A program made the translations under genes and the position numbers. The notes beneath the pieces were generated by a model that had not been told where the DNA came from, did not search any database, and saw nothing but the letters and a program-made list of their open reading frames with translations. From contig NC_015573.1 in assembly GCF_000214705.1 (NCBI RefSeq), positions 2,797,001 to 2,861,000 of the forward strand: a stretch of 64,000 nt of DNA, given 5' to 3'. Shown in pieces: positions 40,371-51,824 of the stretch; the first letter of the stretch is position 1, and every line of letters begins with the position of its first letter. Source of the DNA: Desulfofundulus kuznetsovii DSM 6115. GTDB lineage: Bacteria > Bacillota > Desulfotomaculia > Desulfotomaculales > Desulfovirgulaceae.

Positions 40371-42326
40371 CTAGCTTTCCTGTGATTCGTATTGTTCCTT
40401 GATTTTAGCCACTACCGAAGGATCAGCCAGGGTGGTGGTATCCCCCAGCACCCGGCCCTCGGCGATATCCCGCAGCAGGCGCCGCATGATCTTACCACTG
40501 CGGGTCTTGGGCAGTTCAGCGGTGAAGAATATATCCTCCGGCCGGGCCAGGGCGCCGATCTTCTTAACCACGTGGGCTTTTAGCTCCTCAATTAGCTGAG
40601 GTGTACCCTGGATCCCTTCCTTTAAGGTAACGAAGGCACTTACGGCCTGGCCTTTTACCTCGTGGGCTTTACCGATCACGGCTGCCTCGGCCACTGCCGG
40701 GTGATCCACCAGGGCACTCTCAATTTCCATGGTCCCCAGGCGGTGCCCGCTGACGTTAATCACGTCGTCCACCCGGCCCATAACCCAGAAGTAACCGTCC
40801 TCATCCCACCTGGCCCCGTCACCGGTGAAGTACATGTTCTCAAACCGGCTCCAGTACTGGGCCACGTAACGGTCGGGATCGCCGTAAATGGTGCGCAGCA
40901 TGGCCGGCCAGGGGGACTTGAGGACCAGATAGCCGCCGCTGCCCAGGGGTACATCCTTGCCGGTATTATCCACCACGGCAGCCTCCACACCCGGGAAGGG
41001 TATGGTAGCAGAACCGGGTTTTAAGGTGGTAACACCCGGCAGCGGTGAAATCAGAATCATACCGGTTTCCGTCTGCCACCAGGTATCCACAATGGGGCAG
41101 CGCTCGTTGCCGATATACTTGTAGTACCACATCCAGGCCTCGGGGTTAATGGGCTCGCCCACCGTGCCCAAAAGGCGCAGGCTGGAGAGGTCGCGCCTGG
41201 CGGGCCACTCGGTACCCCACTTCATAAAGGCCCGGATGGCCGTAGGAGCAGTGTACAGGATGTTGACGCGATATTTTTCCACAATGGCCCAGAAGCGGTC
41301 CCTTTCCGGCCAGTCCGGGCTGCCTTCGTACATTACCGTGGTACAGCCGTTGGCCAGGGGCCCGTATACGATGTAGGAGTGGCCGGTCACCCAGCCGATG
41401 TCGGCGGTGCACCAGTAAATGTCATCGTCCTTAATATCAAAGATCATCCGGTGGGTGGCGGAAACCCCAACCAGGTAGCCGCCGGTGGTGTGCACCACGC
41501 CCTTGGGCTTGCCGGTGGTACCGCTGGTATAAAGAATGTACAGCATATCCTCGGCATCCATGTGTTCCGGTTCGCAGCCGATGGGTGCCCTGGCCATCAT
41601 TTCATGCCACCAGTAATCGCGCCCCTGGACAAAGTTAATGTCCTGGCCGGTGCGTTTAACCACGAGCACCTTTTCCACAGTGGGGCATCCGGCCAGCGCA
41701 TCGTCACAGTTCTTCTTCAAGGGTACAATGCCGCCCCGGCGCCAGCCGCCGTCGGCAGTGATGACCAGCTTGGCCTGGCAGTCGTTAATACGGTCCCGCA
41801 AGGATTCAGCGCTGAAACCGCCAAACACAACGCTGTGGGGGGCACCGATGCGGGCGCAGGCCAGCATGGCAATGGGCAATTCGGGAATCATGGGCAGGTA
41901 AATGGTCACCCGGTCGCCCCGCCGGACGCCCAGCTCTTTAAGCACATTGGCACATCTGGTTACTTCCCGGTACAGATCCTGGTAGGTTAGCACCCGGTCG
42001 TCTCCGGGCTCACCTTCCCAGATGATGGCCGCCTTGGTCCTCCGCCAGGTGTTCAGGTGGCGGTCGATGCAGTTATAGGAAACGTTCAATTTGCCGTTTA
42101 CAAACCACTTGAAGAAGGGAGCGTTGCTGGTATCCAGTACTTTGTCCCACTTCTGGAACCAGTCCAGGTTTTCGGCCTGTTTGGCCCAGAAAGCCTCGCG
42201 ATCTTTCTTTGCCTCTTCATAGAAGGAGGTATCTTTTACCAACGCCTTCTCGACAAAATATGCCGGAGGCGGGAATGTCCGGTCTTCCTTTAATAACGCC
42301 TCAAGGACCTTATTTTCATTGGCCAT
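40371..42326 (-). CDS. acs: Acetyl-CoA synthetase (AMP-forming)
   Basis: A 651-residue enzyme making acetyl-CoA from acetate, ATP and CoA. AAAGGAGG precedes the ATG. Motifs: [24 protein letters not shown] (AMP-binding P-loop), [59 protein letters not shown] and the C-terminal acetylation Lys in [14 protein letters not shown]. Length is normal and all parts are present. It is a single-gene unit with its own terminators. In an anaerobe of this type it would activate acetate or related short acids. Confidence 0.96.
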
Positions 42327-42792
42327 AAAAACAAGACCTCCTTTTTCTTTTTCTGATAATGTTAATTCTTCCCAACTGGAACCAAGATCCCAGCATCACC
42401 CCCGTCTTAAGCCAGCGCCAGTGTTTTCTTCTCTGCAAAAGATTTTACACTACAACTGAACAAATTTTAAGAATTTTAAGTCCAATTGCCCAAATTATAG
42501 CTCCAGCATGTTTTTGAATAATGTAAATGGTAAAAAGTGAACCCCCGGGTGCAGCGTTCGCCGTTGGCAGGCAAAAATAAACACTCTGCCCCGGACCCCA
42601 GGACAGAGTGGAAAAATGTTTTTAGCATGCCGGTTTCCCAACCAATGAACAAACATTCACCGTGCTCTTCCATCCGTTCGGCGGCCCATACTGCAGGCTA
42701 AAAGCGCGTCTTCCGCCAATGCCTGCCTGGATGACGGCGTTAGCGCCTGAAAAGGCCGCCTAATTCAGACGGTGATTTAGCGAGCACACTTC
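42327..42792. other. Intergenic region upstream of acs
   Basis: No credible gene. The part next to acs is AT-rich and holds a possible promoter in the acs direction (TTAAAA, 17 bases, TAAAAT, around 42440-42475). A small hairpin CACTCTG/CAGAGTG lies at 42582-42610 between A- and T-runs and may end the operon coming from 42793. A 65-codon minus frame at 42476-42673 has no ribosome site and no family character. Confidence 0.4.
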
Positions 42793-43290
42793 TCAGGCCA
42801 TATCCTCCAGGATCTCGCCAATGAGCCAGAACAGGTCAATAGTCCGCACAACACCACACAAGTTATCCCCGGCCATTACCGGTATAGAATTGACTTTTTT
42901 TTTCAACATTACCAGCGCGGCTTCCCATAGAGCCGCATTCTCATTGACGCAGGCCACTTCCACAGGCCTCATTACTTCTTTAACCGTGACAAATTGCTGT
43001 TTCCAGCAAGCGGGCAGGAAAAAAAGACCTGCCGGATCGCCTTTTAACAGGTCATCCAGGAGAGCCTGGAAGTGCAGGGCCCTCAAGAGCCCCCGCACGG
43101 TAAGGATGCCTACCGCCTTCTTCTGGCGATTGTAAACCAGGGCAGATTCAAAGCCAATCCAGGTGCCGTCTTTACCGCGAAAATAATCGCGCAGCAATTT
43201 AAAGGCGGACAAAGCGTCGGCATCTTCGTGCAAGACCGGAAATTCTTCTGCGGGAACCATAATTTCACGCACCCTCAAACGAAGGGGCAT
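42793..43290 (-). CDS. CBS-domain pair protein
   Basis: A 165-residue protein from ATG 43290 (GAGGTG upstream). Two CBS motifs: VREIMVPAEEFPVLHEDADALSAFKLLRDYF...LVYNRQKKAVGILTVRGLLRAL and VKEVMRPVEVACVNENAALWEAALVMLKKKVNSIPVMAGDNLCGVVRTIDLFWLI. It is a clear paralogue of the CBS protein at 45966, with the same length, same central insert and same order. CBS pairs bind adenine nucleotides and act as energy or signal sensors. It is the last gene of the operon started by the sigma-54 promoter at 45688. Confidence 0.85.
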   Translation of the reverse strand: MPLRLRVREIMVPAEEFPVLHEDADALSAFKLLRDYFRGKDGTWIGFESALVYNRQKKAVGILTVRGLLRALHFQALLDDLLKGDPAGLFFLPACWKQQFVTVKEVMRPVEVACVNENAALWEAALVMLKKKVNSIPVMAGDNLCGVVRTIDLFWLIGEILEDMA

Positions 43291-43328
43291 GGCGTCCGCA
43301 CCTCTCCCCCGGGGAGCTCTGCTCCAGG

Positions 43329-43796
43329 TTACCCTGTTTTTGCCGCCTGGATTTTTCGAATATAATCGCTGGTCACCAGGATAAATTCTGTCAGCACCCC
43401 GGCAATTTCCTCGATGGTTGATAAATCCACCTTCTCCTTGTCCACGGGAAAACACATTTTAAACCGGTACCTGCCCGTTTGTTCCATACTTGGAGACTCC
43501 CGTTCCAACCGGAAGCCCAGGCGGCGCTCCATTTCGGACTGGTAGTTAAGAAGCGGCAGGTAAAGGCTGTGTTTATGGCCATCCAGTACAACTTCACCCA
43601 TAAGGATTTTACGCCCGGAATAAATTCCTGTCCGCGGCTGAGTACGGCACAGGCGGTAGAAAACATCCTGCAGGCCGGGCATCACCAGGCACAGGGCCGA
43701 ACTTCTCGCTTTCCCCCAGCGGGCCGCAGAAACGCATTTAACCGCTATTCCCCGTTGCAAAAGATTTTGTTCTATCCGCCGGCAAATTTCATTCAA
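43329..43796 (-). CDS. Hypothetical protein of the TauE/CBS operon
   Basis: A 155-residue cytoplasmic protein starting at TTG 43796 with GGGGAG 5 bases upstream; the reading frame is open further upstream but has no ATG, GTG or TTG there. It contains three Cys in the first half, and LLNYQSEMERRLGFRLERESPSM followed by YRFKMCFPVDKEK, which faintly recalls DUF4268-type domains. I do not recognise it with confidence. It lies between a small membrane protein and the CBS gene and is likely cotranscribed with both. Confidence 0.6.
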   Translation of the reverse strand: MNEICRRIEQNLLQRGIAVKCVSAARWGKARSSALCLVMPGLQDVFYRLCRTQPRTGIYSGRKILMGEVVLDGHKHSLYLPLLNYQSEMERRLGFRLERESPSMEQTGRYRFKMCFPVDKEKVDLSTIEEIAGVLTEFILVTSDYIRKIQAAKTG

Positions 43797-43907
43797 AAGA
43801 GCTCCCCAGTCCTGATTGGCGTGCAGAGAAGTTCCCTCCCTCTCCTCCAGGTAATGCAGGAGGGGAGTGTTACCTCCCCCCAGTCCTGGCCTTCATCAAT
43901 AAAGATC

Positions 43908-44156
43908 TTAAACAATGCTCAGCACAAACAGCAGGCAGGTTGATAGAGCGGCTCCAAGTACAATAACCGGCCACAAACTGCCTTTTTCTTCATCATGGTC
44001 CCCGGCACGGTATAACTCGATCCGGGCAAAAGATTCCTCCAGATACTCTAAAAGAGAAGGGTCGTAATCCGGGGTCGGTTTGCTCTGGCGCGACGGCAAA
44101 GCTTCCTCACCAAGGTATTCCTCCCGCGAAAGACAACCGGCCCTGCCGTCCTGCAT
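43908..44156 (-). CDS. Small single-helix membrane protein
   Basis: An 82-residue protein from ATG 44156, GGGAGG upstream, overlapping nothing and starting 2 bases after the TauE stop. A soluble acidic N-terminal part (YDPSLLEYLEESFARIELYRAGDHDEE) is followed by one C-terminal membrane helix (LWPVIVLGAALSTCLLFVLSIV). No family recognised. Probably an accessory of the exporter. Confidence 0.65.
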   Translation of the reverse strand: MQDGRAGCLSREEYLGEEALPSRQSKPTPDYDPSLLEYLEESFARIELYRAGDHDEEKGSLWPVIVLGAALSTCLLFVLSIV

Positions 44157-44157
44157 A

Positions 44158-45333
44158 CTAAATCCTCCCTTCACCAACCGCTACAACGGTTTCCTCTTCA
44201 ACTTTGAGTTTTCTCCTGCTCTGCCACATGTTGCCTAAAATAATCACTCCGCCTGTGGCCAGGGCTATACACATAATGACGAAACTTGTACTTGTCAGCA
44301 TTTTCACAGTATCTTCGCCCAGCTTTAAAACACCCAGCTGGTGCAGGTAGGTAGGAACGGCTATGGCCCTGCTGATGGAAACAATCAGCATTATGGTGGC
44401 CATGACCAATTTGATCATATATTCCTTGACGTAAGTCGTACCCACAGCTCCCAACTGCACTCCAATTAAGGAACCGGCTAGAATGAGAAGGGTCATCCTG
44501 ATATCTACAAAGCCGCCCAATGCCCAGGTTAAGGTACCTGTTAACCCCATGACAAAGGCAACCACCAGCTCAGTAGCGCTGGCCACAATGGGCGGTACGC
44601 CCAGCAAGTAAATCATGCCCGGAACACCGATAAAACCACCTACGGCTATTGTTGCCGCCAGCATGCCGGTACCCAGGCCCAGAGGGACGATGACCCAGAA
44701 AGAAACTCTGGTGTTGGCCACATTGAAGTTTATTACCGGCGGGAGCGAGAACTTCTTAATTTTTTCCGCAAGCCCGGAAGTCGTATCCTCCCTCTTTATA
44801 TGCATTGCTTTTCTGGCATCATAAAGCATATACAAACCTAAAAGAGTAAGAACGGACACAAATGCCAGGCTTACGTAAAGGTTTGAACCGGCCGCACCCC
44901 ATTTGGCAAAAATTAATTTTTGAATGCGTATCCCTATTTGCACGCCAATTACCGCCGAAATGGCCATAATCAGACCCAGCTTGATATCCACCTGACCATA
45001 CTTGTAACGCTTGTAGGCTCCCACCATAGCCTTGGGAAACTTGTGACACATATTGCTGGCCACGGCGATGGCCGCCGGCGCACCCAAACTCATCATGCCG
45101 GGAGTCAGCACAAAGGCTCCTCCGGACCCAATAAAGCCGCTGATCAGCCCCCCCAGAAAGCCCAGGACTATCAGGTAAAGCATCCCAAAGGCGTCCAGCC
45201 GGACAAACTGCTTAACCACATCGCCCGAGCCAAGCACTTCCCCGGCTGCTTCACCCACAGAGGGAATGGAAAGCAAAAACAATGCCCCGAGGGCTGCCAG
45301 GCTCCAGCGCATTATTCTTTTACGGCGCTCCAT
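44158..45333 (-). CDS. TauE/SafE-family sulfite or organosulfonate exporter-type permease
   Basis: A 391-residue membrane protein with a signal-like first helix (LAALGALFLLSIPSVGEAAG) and about nine further helices. The TauE halves are recognisable: GFLGGLISGFIGSGGAFVLTPGMMSLGAPAAIAVASNM and GLGTGMLAATIAVGGFIGVPGMIYLLGVPPIVASATELVVAF. Both carry the G-rich motif of the family. Members export sulfite, sulfoacetate or similar anions, or import related compounds. Preceded by a small membrane gene and a sigma-54 promoter. In a probable sulfate reducer a role in sulfur anion traffic is attractive but not shown. Confidence 0.88.
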   Translation of the reverse strand: MERRKRIMRWSLAALGALFLLSIPSVGEAAGEVLGSGDVVKQFVRLDAFGMLYLIVLGFLGGLISGFIGSGGAFVLTPGMMSLGAPAAIAVASNMCHKFPKAMVGAYKRYKYGQVDIKLGLIMAISAVIGVQIGIRIQKLIFAKWGAAGSNLYVSLAFVSVLTLLGLYMLYDARKAMHIKREDTTSGLAEKIKKFSLPPVINFNVANTRVSFWVIVPLGLGTGMLAATIAVGGFIGVPGMIYLLGVPPIVASATELVVAFVMGLTGTLTWALGGFVDIRMTLLILAGSLIGVQLGAVGTTYVKEYMIKLVMATIMLIVSISRAIAVPTYLHQLGVLKLGEDTVKMLTSTSFVIMCIALATGGVIILGNMWQSRRKLKVEEETVVAVGEGRI

Positions 45334-45334
45334 C

Positions 45335-45580
45335 TTAATGCACCCCTTTCTTTAAAGGCTTGATATCAAACATTTCCAGGAGATAATTCGCAAAAGAACC
45401 GTGAATGATGGAAAAAGTTATGGCTGTTATGATAACGCCTGCGGCAGCCAGGCCCCCTCCCCGGGAAAAGTAACCGGTCACGGTATGTTCGTTTAGAAAA
45501 ACTAAAAGATACGCCGCCAAAGTAATAATCCCCCAGGTAATTACATGCCTGACAGCTTTCCCCTGATTATTTTTTTTCAT
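45335..45580 (-). CDS. Small two/three-helix membrane protein
   Basis: An 81-residue protein with GGGGAGG 10 bases before the ATG. Hydrophobic segments: VITWGIITLAAYLLVFLN and AAAGVIITAITFSIIHGSFANYLL. First gene behind the sigma-54 promoter and 1 base from the TauE gene, so likely a small subunit or assembly factor of that exporter. No named family recognised. Confidence 0.72.
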   Translation of the reverse strand: MKKNNQGKAVRHVITWGIITLAAYLLVFLNEHTVTGYFSRGGGLAAAGVIITAITFSIIHGSFANYLLEMFDIKPLKKGVH

Positions 45581-45687
45581 AAGTTATCTACCTCCCCCTC
45601 CGGGAAATGCTTTCACTTGGAACCGCAAATGAGCTACCCGATTTTGCCCCTCACCTCCTTAAAAACCGAAACTTTTGTGATCAATGG

Positions 45688-45702
45688 TGCAAAGCCTGTG
45701 CC
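45688..45702 (-). promoter_or_regulatory. Sigma-54 (-24/-12) promoter of the TauE operon
   Basis: On the minus strand the sequence is GGCAC-AGGCT-TTGCA. The invariant GG and GC are exactly 12 bases apart, as the sigma-54 consensus (TGGCAC-N5-TTGCA) requires. Transcription would start near 45676, about 95 bases before the first ATG. A sigma-54 activator is encoded just upstream at 46500-47861. Confidence 0.8.
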
Positions 45703-45783
45703 TTTAGGCACAAAAAAAAGGCCCGTAATTTCAAGGCCCCACAGAGTTGTCTTAATTTTCCGACTGCTTAAATCATGGTCAGC

Positions 45784-45800
45784 TGTTGAACTTCTCAACA
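45784..45800. promoter_or_regulatory. Proximal activator site (TGTTGA-N5-TCAACA)
   Basis: Perfect 6-base inverted repeat with 5-base spacer, about 110-125 bases upstream of the predicted start site. Likely enhancer for the sigma-54 activator of 46500. Confidence 0.7.
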
Positions 45801-45879
45801 CAAAGCTTTTTCAACCGGGATTTCATGCCCCAACGCCGGACTTCTCCCACCCGCCGGCCGGACCGCCGTCCTTTCGTAA

Positions 45880-45896
45880 TGTTGATTTTTTCAACA
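45880..45896. promoter_or_regulatory. Distal activator site (TGTTGA-N5-TCAACA)
   Basis: Same arms and same spacer length as the site at 45784, 96 bases (about nine helical turns) further upstream; spacer is TTTTT. Confidence 0.7.
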
Positions 45897-45965
45897 AGCT
45901 GCTTGAGAATGTGTGTGCAATATCATGTTCAGGAAAGTGGCGGCATAAAAATTTTTCATGCTTTT

Positions 45966-46457
45966 TTACTGCTGATAGTAATCACTCAACACTTTAAACA
46001 CATCTACGATACGTACAACACCCAGCAGGCGCCCCCGGTCCAAAACGGGCAGGGAATTAACGCTGTACTTTAAAAAAGCGCGAACCACGTCCAAAAGATC
46101 ATCATCAGCCTGTACCGTAGCCACCTTATAAGGTCGCATTATATCCCGGACCCGCATGCGAGAACCCTCTTTCAATTTTTGTAAAAAATACCAGCTCCAT
46201 GACTCCGATTTAAACAGGGGATCTTTAAGTAGTTCATATAATCCGACTGCCGTCAGAATACCGCGCAGAGTTAAAATACCGCTTAGATTCCCGTTTTGGT
46301 CCAGTACAACCAGAATACGGCTGCCGTGCCACGGCCTTCCTTCAAGGTGGAGGGATTGCCTCAAAGCCTGAATGCCCTCGTGAAGGGTGGCATCCTCGGT
46401 AATAGTGGTAAACTGCTCAATGGGAATCATAATTTCCCGGGCTTTTCGCGGAAGCAT
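45966..46457 (-). CDS. CBS-domain pair protein
   Basis: A 163-residue protein with two CBS motifs: AREIMIPIEQFTTITEDATLHEGIQALRQ...LSGILTLRGILTAVGLYELL and VRDIMRPYKVATVQADDDLLDVVRAFLKYSVNSLPVLDRGRLLGVVRIVDVFKVL. Paralogue of 42793. It follows the sigma-54 activator by 42 bases and is probably in the kinase-activator operon. Adenine nucleotide sensing is the family role. Confidence 0.88.
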   Translation of the reverse strand: MLPRKAREIMIPIEQFTTITEDATLHEGIQALRQSLHLEGRPWHGSRILVVLDQNGNLSGILTLRGILTAVGLYELLKDPLFKSESWSWYFLQKLKEGSRMRVRDIMRPYKVATVQADDDLLDVVRAFLKYSVNSLPVLDRGRLLGVVRIVDVFKVLSDYYQQ

Positions 46458-46499
46458 GGGTAGTCCCCCCCCTGGTAAATCAAGGAAGCAAACAGGATC

Positions 46500-47861
46500 T
46501 TAATCGATAATACCCAGTTCTTTCATTTTTAAATAAAGCGAACTCCGGTTCATCTTCAGCGCCTGGGCGGCTGCGGAACGGTTCCAGTTATGCTCCTCCA
46601 GGGCCTGCAGAATGATCTCCCGCTCCACTTCGGCGATCATTTCTTTAAAGGAATCCCCGCTCAAACCCTTTAACCAGTGCAGGCGCCGGGAACTTTTGCG
46701 GATGTTGCGGGGCAGGTCCTCCACCGTTAGCAGGGGACCGGTGGACATCAATACGGCCCGCTCGCAAACATTTTTCAATTCCCGCACGTTGCCCGGCCAG
46801 TCATATTCCAGCAGCAGTTTCATGGCCTGGTCCGTAAACCCGGTCACCTGTTTTTTGTACTCGGCGTTGCAGAGTTTAATCATATGTTCAACCAGCACGG
46901 GAATGTCATCCTTGCGCTCCCTCAAAGGCGGCAGGTAGATATCCACCACGTTCAGGCGGTAAAACAGGTCCTCCCGGAAAGTACCTTCGGCAATGCAATT
47001 TTCCAGGTCCTTATTGGTGGCGGCAATAATGCGTACGTCCACCTTGATGGTTTCGGTGCCTCCCAGGCGCTCAAATTCCCGCTCCTGGATGACGCGGAGC
47101 AGCTTGGCCTGGAGGCTCAAGGACATCTCCCCGATTTCATCGAAAAAAATAGTTCCCCGCTGAGCCAGCTCAAATTTGCCCGGCTTTGATGTTATCGCGC
47201 CGGTAAAGGCGCCCTTTTCATAACCGAACATTTCACTCTCCAGGAGATTCTCGGGTATGGAGGCACAGTTGATTTTAATAAAAGGCTTATCGCGCCGGTC
47301 GCTGTTGTAATGTATCGCCCTGGCCACAAGTTCTTTACCGGTACCGCTTTCGCCGCGGATAAGCACGGTGGCATTGGAATTGGCCACCCTTCCGATAGCC
47401 TTGTACACTTTTTGCATCTCCGGGGATAACCCAATCATGACATCGGCCCGCTCAATAACATCCCGGGCGGTCAAGGAGGGGGTTTTTCGCATCAGCCTCT
47501 TAACCTCTGTGGCTTTTTTAACCGTTTCAATAAGTTCATTAACCTGAAGAGGTTTTAAAAGGTAGTCGAAAGCACCCATCTTCATGGCTTCGATGGTACT
47601 TTGAGTGGAACCGTAAGCCGTAATGAGAATAATGGGAGTATCCTGCCCCTTTAAGCGCACCAGTTCCAGGACCTTGATCCCGTCTACTTCCGGCATGCGG
47701 ATATCCATTATTACCGTTGCCGGATCAAGCGTGGTTATTTTTTCTAACCCCTCCCGGCCGTCCCGTGCCGTCTCCACACGATAACCGTAGTCGGTAAGAA
47801 TGTCTTTAAGGCTTTGCCGTACGCTCTCTTCATCGTCGACAACTAAAATCAAATCTTCCAT
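46500..47861 (-). CDS. NtrC-family sigma-54-dependent response regulator
   Basis: A 453-residue activator from ATG 47861 (AGAGGTGA upstream). Receiver domain with Asp53 in VIMDIRMPEVDG. Central AAA+ domain with Walker A GESGTGKE, the sigma-54 contact loop EKGAFTGAI, Walker B IFFDEIGEMSL and RLGGTETIKVDVRIIAATNKDL. C-terminal Fis-type helix-turn-helix (ILQALEEHNWNRSAAAQALKMNRSSLYLKMKELG). All parts are intact. The kinase gene is 30 bases upstream. The likely target is the -24/-12 promoter at 45688 with its two upstream repeats. Confidence 0.95.
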   Translation of the reverse strand: MEDLILVVDDEESVRQSLKDILTDYGYRVETARDGREGLEKITTLDPATVIMDIRMPEVDGIKVLELVRLKGQDTPIILITAYGSTQSTIEAMKMGAFDYLLKPLQVNELIETVKKATEVKRLMRKTPSLTARDVIERADVMIGLSPEMQKVYKAIGRVANSNATVLIRGESGTGKELVARAIHYNSDRRDKPFIKINCASIPENLLESEMFGYEKGAFTGAITSKPGKFELAQRGTIFFDEIGEMSLSLQAKLLRVIQEREFERLGGTETIKVDVRIIAATNKDLENCIAEGTFREDLFYRLNVVDIYLPPLRERKDDIPVLVEHMIKLCNAEYKKQVTGFTDQAMKLLLEYDWPGNVRELKNVCERAVLMSTGPLLTVEDLPRNIRKSSRRLHWLKGLSGDSFKEMIAEVEREIILQALEEHNWNRSAAAQALKMNRSSLYLKMKELGIID

Positions 47862-47891
47862 CACTTTCACCTCTAAGCAAACACAATCCTG

Positions 47892-49691
47892 CTATGCCCT
47901 GAGATAGACGGTAAACCTGGTTCCCTTGCCCACCTCGCTCTCCACTTCTATCTGCCCGCCATGGGCCTGTACGATCTCGTAGGCAATGGCCAGCCCCAGG
48001 CCGGTCCCCTTCGGCCTGGTGGAATAAAATGGGTCAAAAAGGTGGGCCAGGTTCTCTTTGGGTATGCCGCACCCGGTATCGGCAATGGTCATCGCCACCT
48101 GGTGCCGGTCGGGCAGGTAAGCGGTGGTTATGGATATGGTGCCACCTTCGGGCATAGCCTGGATGGCGTTAAAGATTATATTGACCACTACCCTTTCCAT
48201 TTGTTCTGCGTCCATCCAGACCGGCGGCAGGTCGGTACTCAGATCGAGCAGAAGGTTATATTTGCCGTGATGCATCTCCCGGAAGAATTCAGTCAATTCG
48301 CGAATCAGGACATTTAGATCGCGCTGTACCAGCCGGGCCTCTGCAGGTTTGGTAAAGTACAACAGCTGCTCCACAATGTAGTCCAGGCGAGCAATTTCAC
48401 GCTGAATGGTAGCCAGCGCCTGAGCATTTGGCTGATTATTTTGCAGCCAGTGCTGGATATAGCAACTAATGGAAGTCAACGGGTTGCGGATCTCATGGGC
48501 AACACCGGTAACCAGCTTCCCTAAGGCGGCAAGACGTTCCTGGCGCCGCACTTTCTCCTCCAGGCGCATACGTTCGGTCAGGTCCCGGCAATTAATCACG
48601 GCCCCCAGGAGCTGACCGGAAGCAGTTTTTAAAGGCAAAATGCTCAACAGCAATTGACGGGAATTTTTTTGACCGTTGTTCCAGTTCAGCATCAAATCGC
48701 GAAACGCTTTTTCTTCTTTTAATGTCCGTTGCAGGTAATCTATCAGGGGTGAGTTCTTGGGAAAAAGCTCGTTAATCATAGGGCCTTTAATCCCTTCCGG
48801 CAGGGCGAAAAGTTCCCGGGCCAGGTTATTGGCCAGTACCACCTTACCCCCGGCATTGACTACCACGATGGCTTCATCAATTACGGCCAGCATGGTCTCG
48901 GTGTACAGGTTCAACTCGGCAATGCGACGGGCAAAACCGTTAATCCCCTCTACAATCTCGCCAAGCTCACCGTGGGCTTCAGGCATTGTTTTGGTAAGAT
49001 CTTCTTCCAGGGTTTTCAATCCCTGCCTGATGAACCGCACCTGCATTACAAGGTCACGGAATATATATATGGCCCCTCCAAAACCCGTAAGCACCACAAC
49101 GGCAATTGCCGAATAGGCAATCATTTCGATATGGCGCCGTTTGCCGTAGTAACCCACTTCCGAAAGGTATTCGGCCGAACGGATCACACCTTCCACTTTC
49201 CCGTTGCGGGTGAATGGACGGTAAATTTCAATAATCCCACCTTCTTCAGGACCTAAATTTTGCACCATGCTTTTCCTGTGGGCCATGGTATCCTCAAAGG
49301 CCTTTTTACGCCGGAGGGAAAAATTTTCATCGAAACGACTGGTACCATCAAAAAAAACATGAAGTGGTGCATAATACAATCCGATATGTACTTCAGGATA
49401 CTCACGCTTAACACTGTTAATCTTTTCATTAACAAAATTACCCAGGGCTATTATTTTTTCCTGTCGAGACTTACCCTCCAGACCGTTGTTGACCAGATAA
49501 TCATCCAGGCTGACAGTCAAGTTCTGGTCAAGCAAATAAGCCGCCTGGTTCAGCTTTGCCTTCTGGTGTTCCAGAAGGGAGAGCTCGCTGTTTTTGATAA
49601 TATGCATCATGTAGACGGTAAGAAAAACGGGCAGTACCAGCAGCAGGGTTACCAGAAACAATATACGGTTGCCGTAAAAAAATCTGTGCAA
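47892..49691 (-). CDS. Sensor histidine kinase partner of the NtrC-type regulator
   Basis: About 599 residues from TTG 49691 (GAGGTGG at good spacing; a GTG at 49700 is possible). Helix 1 (ILFLVTLLLVLPVFLTVYM), a periplasmic-type sensor region of about 160 residues, helix 2 (IEMIAYSAIAVVVLTGFGGAIYIF), HAMP-like linker, PAS domain (about 265-370: AVIDEAIVVVNAGGKVVLANN), His block VTGVAHEIRNPLTSISCYIQHW, and ATPase motifs NIIFNAIQAMPEGG, IADTGCGIPKENL and GTGLGLAIAYEIVQAHGG. AtoS/ZraS-like. Ligand unknown; genes controlled suggest a sulfur anion or energy signal. Confidence 0.93.
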   Translation of the reverse strand: MHRFFYGNRILFLVTLLLVLPVFLTVYMMHIIKNSELSLLEHQKAKLNQAAYLLDQNLTVSLDDYLVNNGLEGKSRQEKIIALGNFVNEKINSVKREYPEVHIGLYYAPLHVFFDGTSRFDENFSLRRKKAFEDTMAHRKSMVQNLGPEEGGIIEIYRPFTRNGKVEGVIRSAEYLSEVGYYGKRRHIEMIAYSAIAVVVLTGFGGAIYIFRDLVMQVRFIRQGLKTLEEDLTKTMPEAHGELGEIVEGINGFARRIAELNLYTETMLAVIDEAIVVVNAGGKVVLANNLARELFALPEGIKGPMINELFPKNSPLIDYLQRTLKEEKAFRDLMLNWNNGQKNSRQLLLSILPLKTASGQLLGAVINCRDLTERMRLEEKVRRQERLAALGKLVTGVAHEIRNPLTSISCYIQHWLQNNQPNAQALATIQREIARLDYIVEQLLYFTKPAEARLVQRDLNVLIRELTEFFREMHHGKYNLLLDLSTDLPPVWMDAEQMERVVVNIIFNAIQAMPEGGTISITTAYLPDRHQVAMTIADTGCGIPKENLAHLFDPFYSTRPKGTGLGLAIAYEIVQAHGGQIEVESEVGKGTRFTVYLRA

Positions 49692-49803
49692 TGATCCCAC
49701 CTCTAATAACGGGAATGGGTTTTAACTTAATTGTAATACCGGATAATCCACTTTTGGAAGTGAAAAACTTCCCATTAAAAGACGTAAATAAAGGAGAAAA
49801 TCC

Positions 49804-49926
49804 ATGTATCAACTAAAAGTGCCATTCTCCGAGAGTAAGCTTCTGCAGGCGGGGGATAATATTGGCGTACTGAGGGCCCTCGAGGCCGCCTTGTGTACCT
49901 GGCTTATAGGTACCCCGTGCGGCTGA
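49804..49926 (+). CDS. Small ORF in the treZ leader
   Basis: A 40-codon frame starting MYQLKVPFSESKLLQAGD and ending ALCTWLIGTPCG. AAGGAG lies 7 bases before the ATG, the best ribosome site in this leader. Ends 38 bases before the treZ start. It may be a leader peptide coupling translation to treZ, a remnant of a longer protein, or a small protein in its own right. No family recognised. Confidence 0.45.
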   Translation: MYQLKVPFSESKLLQAGDNIGVLRALEAALCTWLIGTPCG

Positions 49927-49964
49927 ACCGCGGGATCGTTGAACGTAAAGGAACGGTGAACCGG

Positions 49965-51824
49965 ATGGAACCAAACGCGAGCTCTCCTCAACCCCCGGGG
50001 GCCACTTACCTGGGGGGTGGCCGTTGCCATTTCAGGGTGTGGGCCCCCCGGGTAAAGAGCCTGGCCGTGCACATATTGGGACCCCGGGAAAGGCTCGTCC
50101 CTTTACCTAAAGGGAGACGTGACTATTTTTGCGGCACGGTGGAAGGAGTGGAACCCGGAAGCCTCTACTGCTACCTCCTGGATGGGGAAACAGAACGGCC
50201 CGACCCGGCCTCGCGCCACCAACCGGAAGGAGTGTACGGGCCCTCCCAGGTGGTGGACCTGAAATCCTTTGCCTGGAGCGACCAGTGCTGGTTTGGCCCG
50301 GCCAGGGAAAACCTGGTTTTTTACGAGCTTCACGTAGGAACCTTCACCCGGGAGGGAACCTTTGAGGCCATCATACCTCACCTGGAGGAGTTAAAGGAAC
50401 TGGGTATCACCGCTATCCAGCTCATGCCCGTGGCCCAGTTCCCGGGAAGCCGCAACTGGGGCTACGATGGGGTCTACCCCTTTGCCGTGCAAAATTCCTA
50501 CGGAGGGCCCAGCGGGCTGCAGCGCCTGGTGGACGCCTGCCACCAAAAGGGGCTGGCCGTATTTCTTGACGTGGTCTACAACCACCTGGGGCCGGAGGGC
50601 AATTACCTGGGCGACTACGCCCCCTATTTTACAGAACGTCATCGCACCCCGTGGGGACCGGCAGTTAACTTTGACGGGCCGGGTAGCGATGAAGTGCGCC
50701 GCTACTTTATTGAAAACGCCCTGTACTGGGTGCGGAACTTCCACCTGGACGGCTTGCGCCTGGACGCAGTGCACGCCATTATGGACATGTCGGCCATCCA
50801 CTTTCTGGAGGAACTGGCAGAAGAGGTGCACCGGGAGGCGGAACGCCTGGGCCGACGGGTGTACGTGGTGGCGGAAAGCGATCTCAATGACGCCCGCCTC
50901 ATCCGGCCCCGGGCGGTGGGCGGTTACGGCCTGGACGCCCAGTGGTGCGACGACTTCCATCACGCCCTGCACGCCCTCCTGACGGGCGAAAGACTGGGGT
51001 ACTACCGGGATTTCGGAGAGCTTTTTCACTTGACCAAAGCCTTTCGGAAGGGCTACGTGTATACGGGCCAGTACTCGGAATACCGGCAGCGCAGGCATGG
51101 CGGCCCCACGGATTTATGCCAACCATACCGTTTTGTGGTTTTTACCCAAAACCACGACCAGGTAGGCAACCGGGCCGGGGGCGAAAGGCTCAGCAGCCTG
51201 GCCTCCTTTGAGGACCTCAAGCTGGCGGCGGCAGCAGCTATCCTCTCCCCATACATACCCCTGCTCTTCATGGGGGAGGAGTACGGGGAAACAGCCCCTT
51301 TTCTCTACTTCACCAGCCACACTGACCCCAGCCTGGCCGAGGCGGTGCGAAAGGGGCGCCGGGAGGAATTTTCCGCCTTTGCCTGGCAGGAGGTACCGGA
51401 CCCGCAGGACGAGCAAACCTTCCTGCGTTCCCGCCTTAACCGGGACCTCCGCCGGCAGGGCCACCACCGGGTGCTCTACGGGTTTTACCGGGAGTTGCTG
51501 TGGTTGCGCCGGCAGGTACCGGCTCTTCAAGACCCCAAGTGGGAAAACATGGAGGTTAATTCTTATCCCGAAGAGCTGGTCCTTGTGGTACAGCGATGGA
51601 ATAACGGGGCCAGGGCTTGCCTTATTCTCTCTTTCAAAGATATCCCGGTTTTCTTGAACCTGCCCCTGGAACCGGGACGCTGGCAAAAGCTTTTGGATAC
51701 CGCGGAAGAGCGCTGGCTGGGCAATGGCAGCACTGTACCGCCGGTACTGTCGTCTTTGGGAAGAATAGAGCTTGCCCTGCCGCCTAAGACGTGTATCTTA
51801 CTGGAACATTTGAAGGAGGGCTGA
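49965..51824 (+). CDS. treZ: Malto-oligosyltrehalose trehalohydrolase
   Basis: About 619 residues from ATG 49965; a GTG at 49956 with AAAGGA close by is the alternative. An N-terminal CBM48-like domain (RCHFRVWAPRVKSLAVHI) precedes the GH13 barrel: VYNHLGPEGNYLGDY, DGLRLDAVHAIMD (nucleophile Asp), VYVVAESDLND (acid Glu) and FTQNHDQVGNR. These fit TreZ rather than branching enzyme. It releases trehalose from maltooligosyltrehalose made by TreY, encoded two genes downstream. The next gene starts 5 bases after its stop. Confidence 0.94.
   Translation: MEPNASSPQPPGATYLGGGRCHFRVWAPRVKSLAVHILGPRERLVPLPKGRRDYFCGTVEGVEPGSLYCYLLDGETERPDPASRHQPEGVYGPSQVVDLKSFAWSDQCWFGPARENLVFYELHVGTFTREGTFEAIIPHLEELKELGITAIQLMPVAQFPGSRNWGYDGVYPFAVQNSYGGPSGLQRLVDACHQKGLAVFLDVVYNHLGPEGNYLGDYAPYFTERHRTPWGPAVNFDGPGSDEVRRYFIENALYWVRNFHLDGLRLDAVHAIMDMSAIHFLEELAEEVHREAERLGRRVYVVAESDLNDARLIRPRAVGGYGLDAQWCDDFHHALHALLTGERLGYYRDFGELFHLTKAFRKGYVYTGQYSEYRQRRHGGPTDLCQPYRFVVFTQNHDQVGNRAGGERLSSLASFEDLKLAAAAAILSPYIPLLFMGEEYGETAPFLYFTSHTDPSLAEAVRKGRREEFSAFAWQEVPDPQDEQTFLRSRLNRDLRRQGHHRVLYGFYRELLWLRRQVPALQDPKWENMEVNSYPEELVLVVQRWNNGARACLILSFKDIPVFLNLPLEPGRWQKLLDTAEERWLGNGSTVPPVLSSLGRIELALPPKTCILLEHLKEG

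Follow-up and report, generated by a model that had tools for sequence, protein, structure and literature searches.

A predicted two-component sigma-54 switch for a TauE-family transporter operon in Desulfofundulus kuznetsovii and its relatives

Activators of sigma-54 promoters such as NtrC, NifA and FhlA carry a Fis-type HTH and have enhancers made of inverted repeats, located about 80-200 bp upstream of the -24/-12 promoter, the site of NtrC being TGCACC-N5-GGTGCA. The locus described here follows this general plan, with inverted-repeat sites ahead of its -24/-12 promoter and a Fis-type HTH in its regulator, even though its half-site, TGWYSA, is not that of NtrC. In the portions of PMC6615313 used here, FhlA and NifA are counted among the TGT/ACA types, and a further sigma-54 activator, XhpR, is assigned to Desulfosporosinus, Carboxydocella and Desulfotomaculum (given as Clostridiales), with hyp-memP as its target. 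The XhpR site is a TGT/ACA with a 10-12-bp spacer, a type common to 15 groups in that study and hence not specific. Both systems combine a sigma-54 activator, a target made of a hypothetical and a membrane protein, and a TGT/ACA site, which here reads TGT-N11-ACA and falls within the same spacer class. However, nothing in those portions describes a three-site layout, D155, CBS proteins or a kinase such as those of this locus.

A second point of comparison is the AtoS-AtoC system. The kinase of this locus passes the cut-off of the NCBIfam AtoS model (650.8 bits, cut-off 646), and AtoC is the best NCBIfam model for the regulator. Contrary to AtoS-AtoC, however, the regulator fails the AtoC cut-off (540 vs 714) and the target is a TauE operon; no ato genes were found among the nine cluster proteins scanned with Pfam and NCBIfam. 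Regarding the transporter, putative CysZ/TSUP proteins were found in all 44 sulfate-reducer genomes surveyed in PMC5840216, where, in the portions used, their functions could not be predicted. The TauE protein of this locus belongs to the same family, whereas its S81 partner and its sigma-54 regulation are not described in those portions. Among the papers listed by the literature searches, nothing is named as this operon beyond PMC6615313. The main text of PMC5770442, on D. kuznetsovii, gave no match to terms for the operon, and the portions used of PMC3333781 and PMC3949148 hold no matching regulator.

The stretch of DNA analysed, referred to as the window, comprises 64,000 nucleotides (GC 0.566) of the genome of Desulfofundulus kuznetsovii DSM 6115, a single contig of 3,601,386 bases. 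On the minus strand, from 49700 to 42793, it encodes in this order the kinase, the NtrC-type regulator, a CBS protein and, after a 385-base intergenic region holding the promoter and the activator sites, S81, TauE, S89, D155 and a second CBS protein. The features are the following, with window positions and with the starts of the activator sites counted from the first base of the -24 element:

47892..49700, minus strand: sensor histidine kinase, 602 aa (Pfam HisKA, HATPase_c, PAS)
46500..47870, minus strand: NtrC-type response regulator, 456 aa, with receiver, sigma-54 AAA+ domain with GAFTGA, and Fis-type HTH (Pfam)
45966..46457, minus strand: two-CBS-domain protein, 3' of the regulator gene (Pfam CBS, two stretches)
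45880..45896, minus strand: predicted distal activator site TGTTGAAAAAATCAACA, a 17-mer starting at -193
45784..45800, minus strand: predicted proximal activator site 1, TGTTGAGAAGTTCAACA, at -97
45765..45781, minus strand: predicted proximal activator site 2, TGACCATGATTTAAGCA, at -78, its centre 19 bp from that of site 1
45712..45740, minus strand: possible, weak intrinsic terminator of the kinase-regulator-CBS operon, GGCC...GGCC and then a T run, with a similar arrangement in an alignment with 4 relatives
45688..45703, minus strand: predicted sigma-54 promoter AGGCACAGGCTTTGCA, which falls in the same columns when the five loci are aligned
45335..45580, minus strand: S81, small membrane protein of 81 aa, a conserved TauE partner with homologs directly before TauE in relatives
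44158..45333, minus strand: TauE/TSUP-family membrane transporter, 391 aa (Pfam TauE, 5.3e-41)
43908..44177, minus strand: S89, 89 aa, with a C-terminal membrane segment (by eye), a likely ATG start at 44156, and homologs in three same-genus loci (L035, L115, L116)
43329..43796, minus strand: D155, 155 aa, an uncharacterised member of a conserved family
42793..43290, minus strand: second two-CBS-domain protein (CBS2), last gene of the operon (Pfam CBS, two stretches)
42582..42610, minus strand: terminator-like hairpin at the end of the operon, ahead of the acetyl-CoA synthetase gene, with 13 pairs in its stem and then a T-rich tail

The target operon is thus made of five genes, S81-TauE-S89-D155-CBS2. 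An earlier note on this DNA had proposed a self-contained circuit controlling a TauE/SafE exporter, two small membrane proteins and a CBS protein; a conserved, dedicated switch is what the comparison below supports, whereas the operon has five genes, D155 having been overlooked. The transporter assignment agrees with the match to PF01925 (141.3 bits, cut-off 32.6), the word exporter being taken from the name of that Pfam family only. The stem of the closing hairpin is the longest among those listed in a scan that gave 10 such sites overall against 10.9 in shuffles. Past this hairpin lies the acetyl-CoA synthetase gene (40371-42326 of the window), which also adjoins the cluster in the same-genus loci L035, L115 and L116.

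The NtrC-type activator and kinase that the note had placed just upstream are both there, as judged from their Pfam domains. In the kinase, two N-terminal membrane segments, identified by eye, flank an extracytoplasmic Cache-like domain, which is followed by PAS, HisKA and HATPase domains. The sensor domain has no sequence relative in the PDB at E up to 1; its model (pLDDT 89) finds its best PDB matches in Cache-type chemoreceptor domains, with WalK among the matches. The regulator combines the receiver with its phospho-acceptor Asp, the AAA+ domain with GAFTGA and the Fis-type HTH that define an NtrC-type protein. In an alignment of 26 homologs, its own sequence included, all have the Asp and 25 have GAFTGA, the exception being G071 with GSFTGA.

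The predicted promoter, on the minus strand at 45703-45688, departs from TGGCAC-N5-TTGCW by its first base alone, and its GG and GC start 12 bases apart, as had been claimed. By number, matches to this pattern are not above chance, with 16 in the window against 20.6 expected, and 105 genome-wide against 87 for a reversed-pattern control. Conservation is the proper test of the element and carries the case: in the alignments of relatives, it is conserved across genera, and its layout recurs. The genome encodes one sigma-54 factor (PF04552 match, 4.4e-63), and transcription is predicted to start near 45676. The operon could also be transcribed mainly from a sigma-A promoter or by read-through, leaving the sigma-54 element as a minor or relic input, and this would agree with the seven sigma-70-like matches in 42300-50000 and with the weakness of the terminator between the two units, the predicted fold of 45712-45740 being no better than that of shuffles (z 0.10). 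However, those seven matches equal the shuffle mean of 7.2, none falls in the stretch from the activator sites to S81, and conservation across genera is seen for the sigma-54 element, so that we consider this explanation very unlikely.

Upstream of the predicted sigma-54 promoter, two perfect TGTTGA-N5-TCAACA palindromes are found on the minus strand at 45800-45784 and 45896-45880. The previous description of two identical activator sites was exact as to their distance of 96 bases and their identical half-sites; on the other hand, the 5-base centres differ, and a third, degenerate site at 45781-45765 had gone unnoticed. In the whole 3.60 Mb genome, the perfect palindrome occurs twice, both copies lying at this locus within 113 bases, against about 0.14 copies expected by composition at a genomic GC that we take to be 0.549; nine copies with one mismatch lie elsewhere. 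Within the window, matches with up to two mismatches number 5 against 1.42 expected, a count reached in 1 of 100 shuffles. The degenerate site is the third match of the motif model, with 10.2 bits when this model is trained without the genus of the window and without Desulfovirgula. Three unrelated positions of the window (12647, 13115 and 34302) score better than its 11.4 with the full model, and hence the site is supported by its place and its conservation, not by its score.

The TauE homologs compared came from 113 genomes of the order, among which 59 gave a match at 1e-30, and from GTDB contigs, of which 80 of 444 were kept. A palindromic 17-base motif was then searched for within 300 bases upstream of the -24 element in 19 loci, including that of the window. 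The motif obtained, TGWYSA-N5-TSRWCA, scores 718.9 against a mean of 313 and a maximum of 389 in 200 shuffles, and 466.4 when one locus is kept per genus (13 loci; mean 222 and maximum 268 in 100 shuffles). The perfect palindrome is one version of this looser predicted motif. With leave-out models, in which the four loci of the genus of the window were removed as a group and the others one at a time (with three same-genus pairs among the latter), both proximal slots, with starts at -76 to -80 and -96 to -103, are filled in 15 of the 19 loci. A distal match at -163 to -197 is present in 16 of 19, and all three sites in 14 rather than 16, since the distal matches of G066 and G067 belong to a shifted pair. 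These two loci and G071 are exceptions in which a pair of sites 23 bases apart is displaced further upstream; the one site of G009 lies outside the slots, and G017 has no distal match. The orthologous intergenic regions, in which an absence of the repeats would have counted against the note, thus hold both sites and promoter at similar positions in relatives. This is a clear case of an enhancer geometry preserved across genera as the letters of the half-sites drift.

These alignments bear as well on the idea that the palindromes are RNA hairpins acting as terminator or stability elements of the kinase-regulator-CBS transcript, with the -24/-12 match arising by chance. TGTTGA and TCAACA would be able to pair as a stem, the palindromes lie 3' of the CBS gene in the direction of its transcript, and the -24/-12 matches, as stated, are not above chance by number. 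Nevertheless, no T run follows the palindromes, and the gene upstream differs in several relatives, yet the sites and their spacing from the promoter are preserved. The half-sites also vary (TGACCA, TGTCCA, TGATGA) while TG...CA stays constant, a behaviour that fits protein binding, and the hairpin explanation is, in our judgement, hardly credible.

Orthologs of the neighbouring regulator, at 65% identity or more, were found in 27 of 113 genomes, by a search that for most genomes scored 14 first-look candidates. Every one of these 27 also has a TauE of this group (41-100% identity), as do 16 of the 86 other genomes; the same-genus G063 and G064 have neither the regulator ortholog nor a TauE of this group. 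Nine of the 27 regulator-positive genomes were outside the training set. Since the slots had been chosen after viewing the training loci, the blind test of the slots comes from the five of these (G014, G016, G023, G034 and G035) that were first examined after slots and threshold had been fixed. In all five, the motif precedes the sigma-54 promoter of TauE, with the -78 to -80 slot filled in 5/5, the -99 to -101 slot in 4/5, and both in 4/5. As to the four that had been seen earlier, both slots are occupied upstream of at least one TauE in G015 and G069, and a single proximal slot in each of G026 and G027.

By contrast, none of the 12 TauE regions whose genomes lack a close regulator ortholog has the motif, even though a sigma-54-like site is present in 9 of these 12, four of the nine about 1 kb before TauE; in this set, the upstream sequence of G012 was only some 550 bases long, and regulators of about 48-60% identity occur in several of the 12. 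This blind contrast of 5/5 versus 0/12 ties the motif to the neighbouring regulator. The regulator HTH is nearly invariant (NWNRSAAAQALKMNRSSLY-KMKELGI) in motif-bearing genomes, and it differs in G051, G057, G058, G004, G006 and G007, whose six loci gave no motif clusters; within the regulator-negative set, the HTH of the regulators of 48-60% identity was examined in G004, G006, G007 and G057 only. The HTH of G009 is intermediate.

The genome encodes 17 strong sigma-54 activator domains (PF00158), that of this regulator and 16 others, and one of the latter might bind the sites of a genuine promoter while the neighbouring regulator acts elsewhere. Against this, the motif tracks the regulator ortholog in the blind comparison, conservation of the HTH goes with that of the motif, and the only two perfect palindromes of the genome adjoin this very regulator, of which no second copy was found at E up to 1e-140 among the 14 of 58 first-look candidates scored in this genome. 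Another activator is therefore an improbable explanation, although the least improbable of the three alternatives considered. A second regulator of about 60% identity occurs in several relatives (G062:C23, G065:C28 and G061:C12), and none at that threshold in this genome.

What these computations show directly is the predicted promoter with its three sites, how these are conserved, and the association of the motif with the regulator. The explanation that we favour, and hold to be highly probable, is a two-component sigma-54 switch dedicated to one operon, in which the kinase would act through the regulator at three sites to control S81-TauE-S89-D155-CBS2. The kinase would sense an extracellular signal via its Cache-like domain and, in turn, would phosphorylate the NtrC-type regulator. 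The regulator would then bind the tandem proximal pair and the single distal site and assemble its AAA+ ring, and DNA looping would open the sigma-54 polymerase held at 45703-45688, starting the transcription of the five genes. This regulatory logic is deduced from the conserved architecture; as judged by comparison of sequences, the proposed circuit is conserved, ordinary in kind and well supported.

Variants of this arrangement are seen in other loci. In the related family f9 (L030, L032, L033, L192 and L196), a sigma-54 promoter also precedes TauE, with TGT-N10-ACA copies replacing this motif: they lie at -66 to -68 in 4/5 loci and at -168 or -169 in 4/5, counts made without a shuffle control. 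The f9 genomes G051, G057 and G058 are among those with a diverged regulator HTH, and the f9 loci that were examined gave no S81 in the vicinity of TauE. Given these copies and the description of XhpR in the portions of PMC6615313 used, a sister system has probably already been predicted there as XhpR with hyp-memP, our regulator itself being at most a candidate for XhpR. Among L048-L114, which comprise Deltaproteobacteria and other distant loci, none has a palindrome and a sigma-54-like site, each with at most one mismatch, before TauE.

The layout of the window is also found before other genes of the relatives: before a second TauE gene (L118 8214-, L132 7707+), before TauE outside the training set (L127 6557-, L129 9738+ and 12899+, L131 10584- and 7647-), before D155 (L041 13659-, L044 13469+, L045 13348+) and before the kinase gene (L118 6476-). 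Three other D155 promoters have one slot only (L131 1889+, L118 1032+, L040 9522+), and L042 8085+ is a candidate located 545 bases before a kinase gene. The place of D155 inside the single operon of the window fits its membership of the same regulon. In 31 loci, training loci included, the motif occupies the slots of 28 of 63 sigma-54-like sites with up to one mismatch (17 in both slots), against 0/3 for the reversed-pattern control, and of 31 of 149 sites with two mismatches, against 0/59. The cluster at L118 1-11623 has four sigma-54 promoters with motif matches in the standard slots, one of them before the kinase gene, which suggests autoregulation in that locus. In the genome of D. kuznetsovii, where the best motif score upstream of the kinase gene is -1.5, autoregulation is unsupported, since no site of this kind precedes that gene. 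A wider regulon was likewise considered here and set aside: the relaxed motif gives 19 sites genome-wide against 11 in the reversed control, so that the motif alone defines no regulon and no extra target is claimed. Around the nine one-mismatch palindromes (about 600 bases to each side), no sigma-54-like site with the motif within 260 bases upstream appeared among the matches listed.

Among the operon products, TauE has no sequence relative in the PDB at E up to 1, and neither S81 nor D155 matches any model in Pfam or NCBIfam. D155 has residues invariant in 17/17 sequences, such as ERE and a G-YR pair, and a confident model (pLDDT 88) with no PDB match at E up to 0.001. Its best fold match, ExsC (E 0.013), and the other type III secretion chaperone folds that follow it are not significant, the resemblance being weak. 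The dsrA gene exceeds its cut-off in 41 of the 43 genomes with TauE of this group and in 34 of the 70 others, a comparison confounded by lineage, as is any reading of the TauE substrate; the two genomes that have such a TauE but no dsrA above the cut-off, G004 and G033, have a completeness of 72% and 88%. In the deltaproteobacterial sulfate reducers L055 (3797-8981) and L084 (3240-8888), S81 forms a portion of a longer protein encoded ahead of TauE, without a Pfam match where scanned; a tandem universal stress protein (USP) follows TauE, and upstream there is a divergent protein that combines receiver, AAA and Lon protease domains.

The operon could thus provide a TauE/TSUP-type anion transporter together with CBS-domain proteins and small partners in the membrane. 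Its substrate may be a sulfur oxyanion used in sulfate respiration, an assignment that is weakly supported. CBS and USP domains commonly bind adenylates, and their presence here and in the Deltaproteobacteria, respectively, is what brings energy state into consideration. We therefore raise, as a tentative and rather doubtful proposal, a transporter switch of sulfate respiration in which a Cache-type extracellular signal would lead to three-site sigma-54 activation, while adenylate-binding partners would match the activity of TauE/S81 to the energy of the cell. If true, sulfate reducers would have a two-layer control of sulfur-oxyanion flux. The ligand of the kinase and the targets of the regulator would show when these bacteria need the TauE transporter, and the locus offers an activator site, a promoter and a regulon open to experimental test, for a family of transporters widespread among sulfate reducers.
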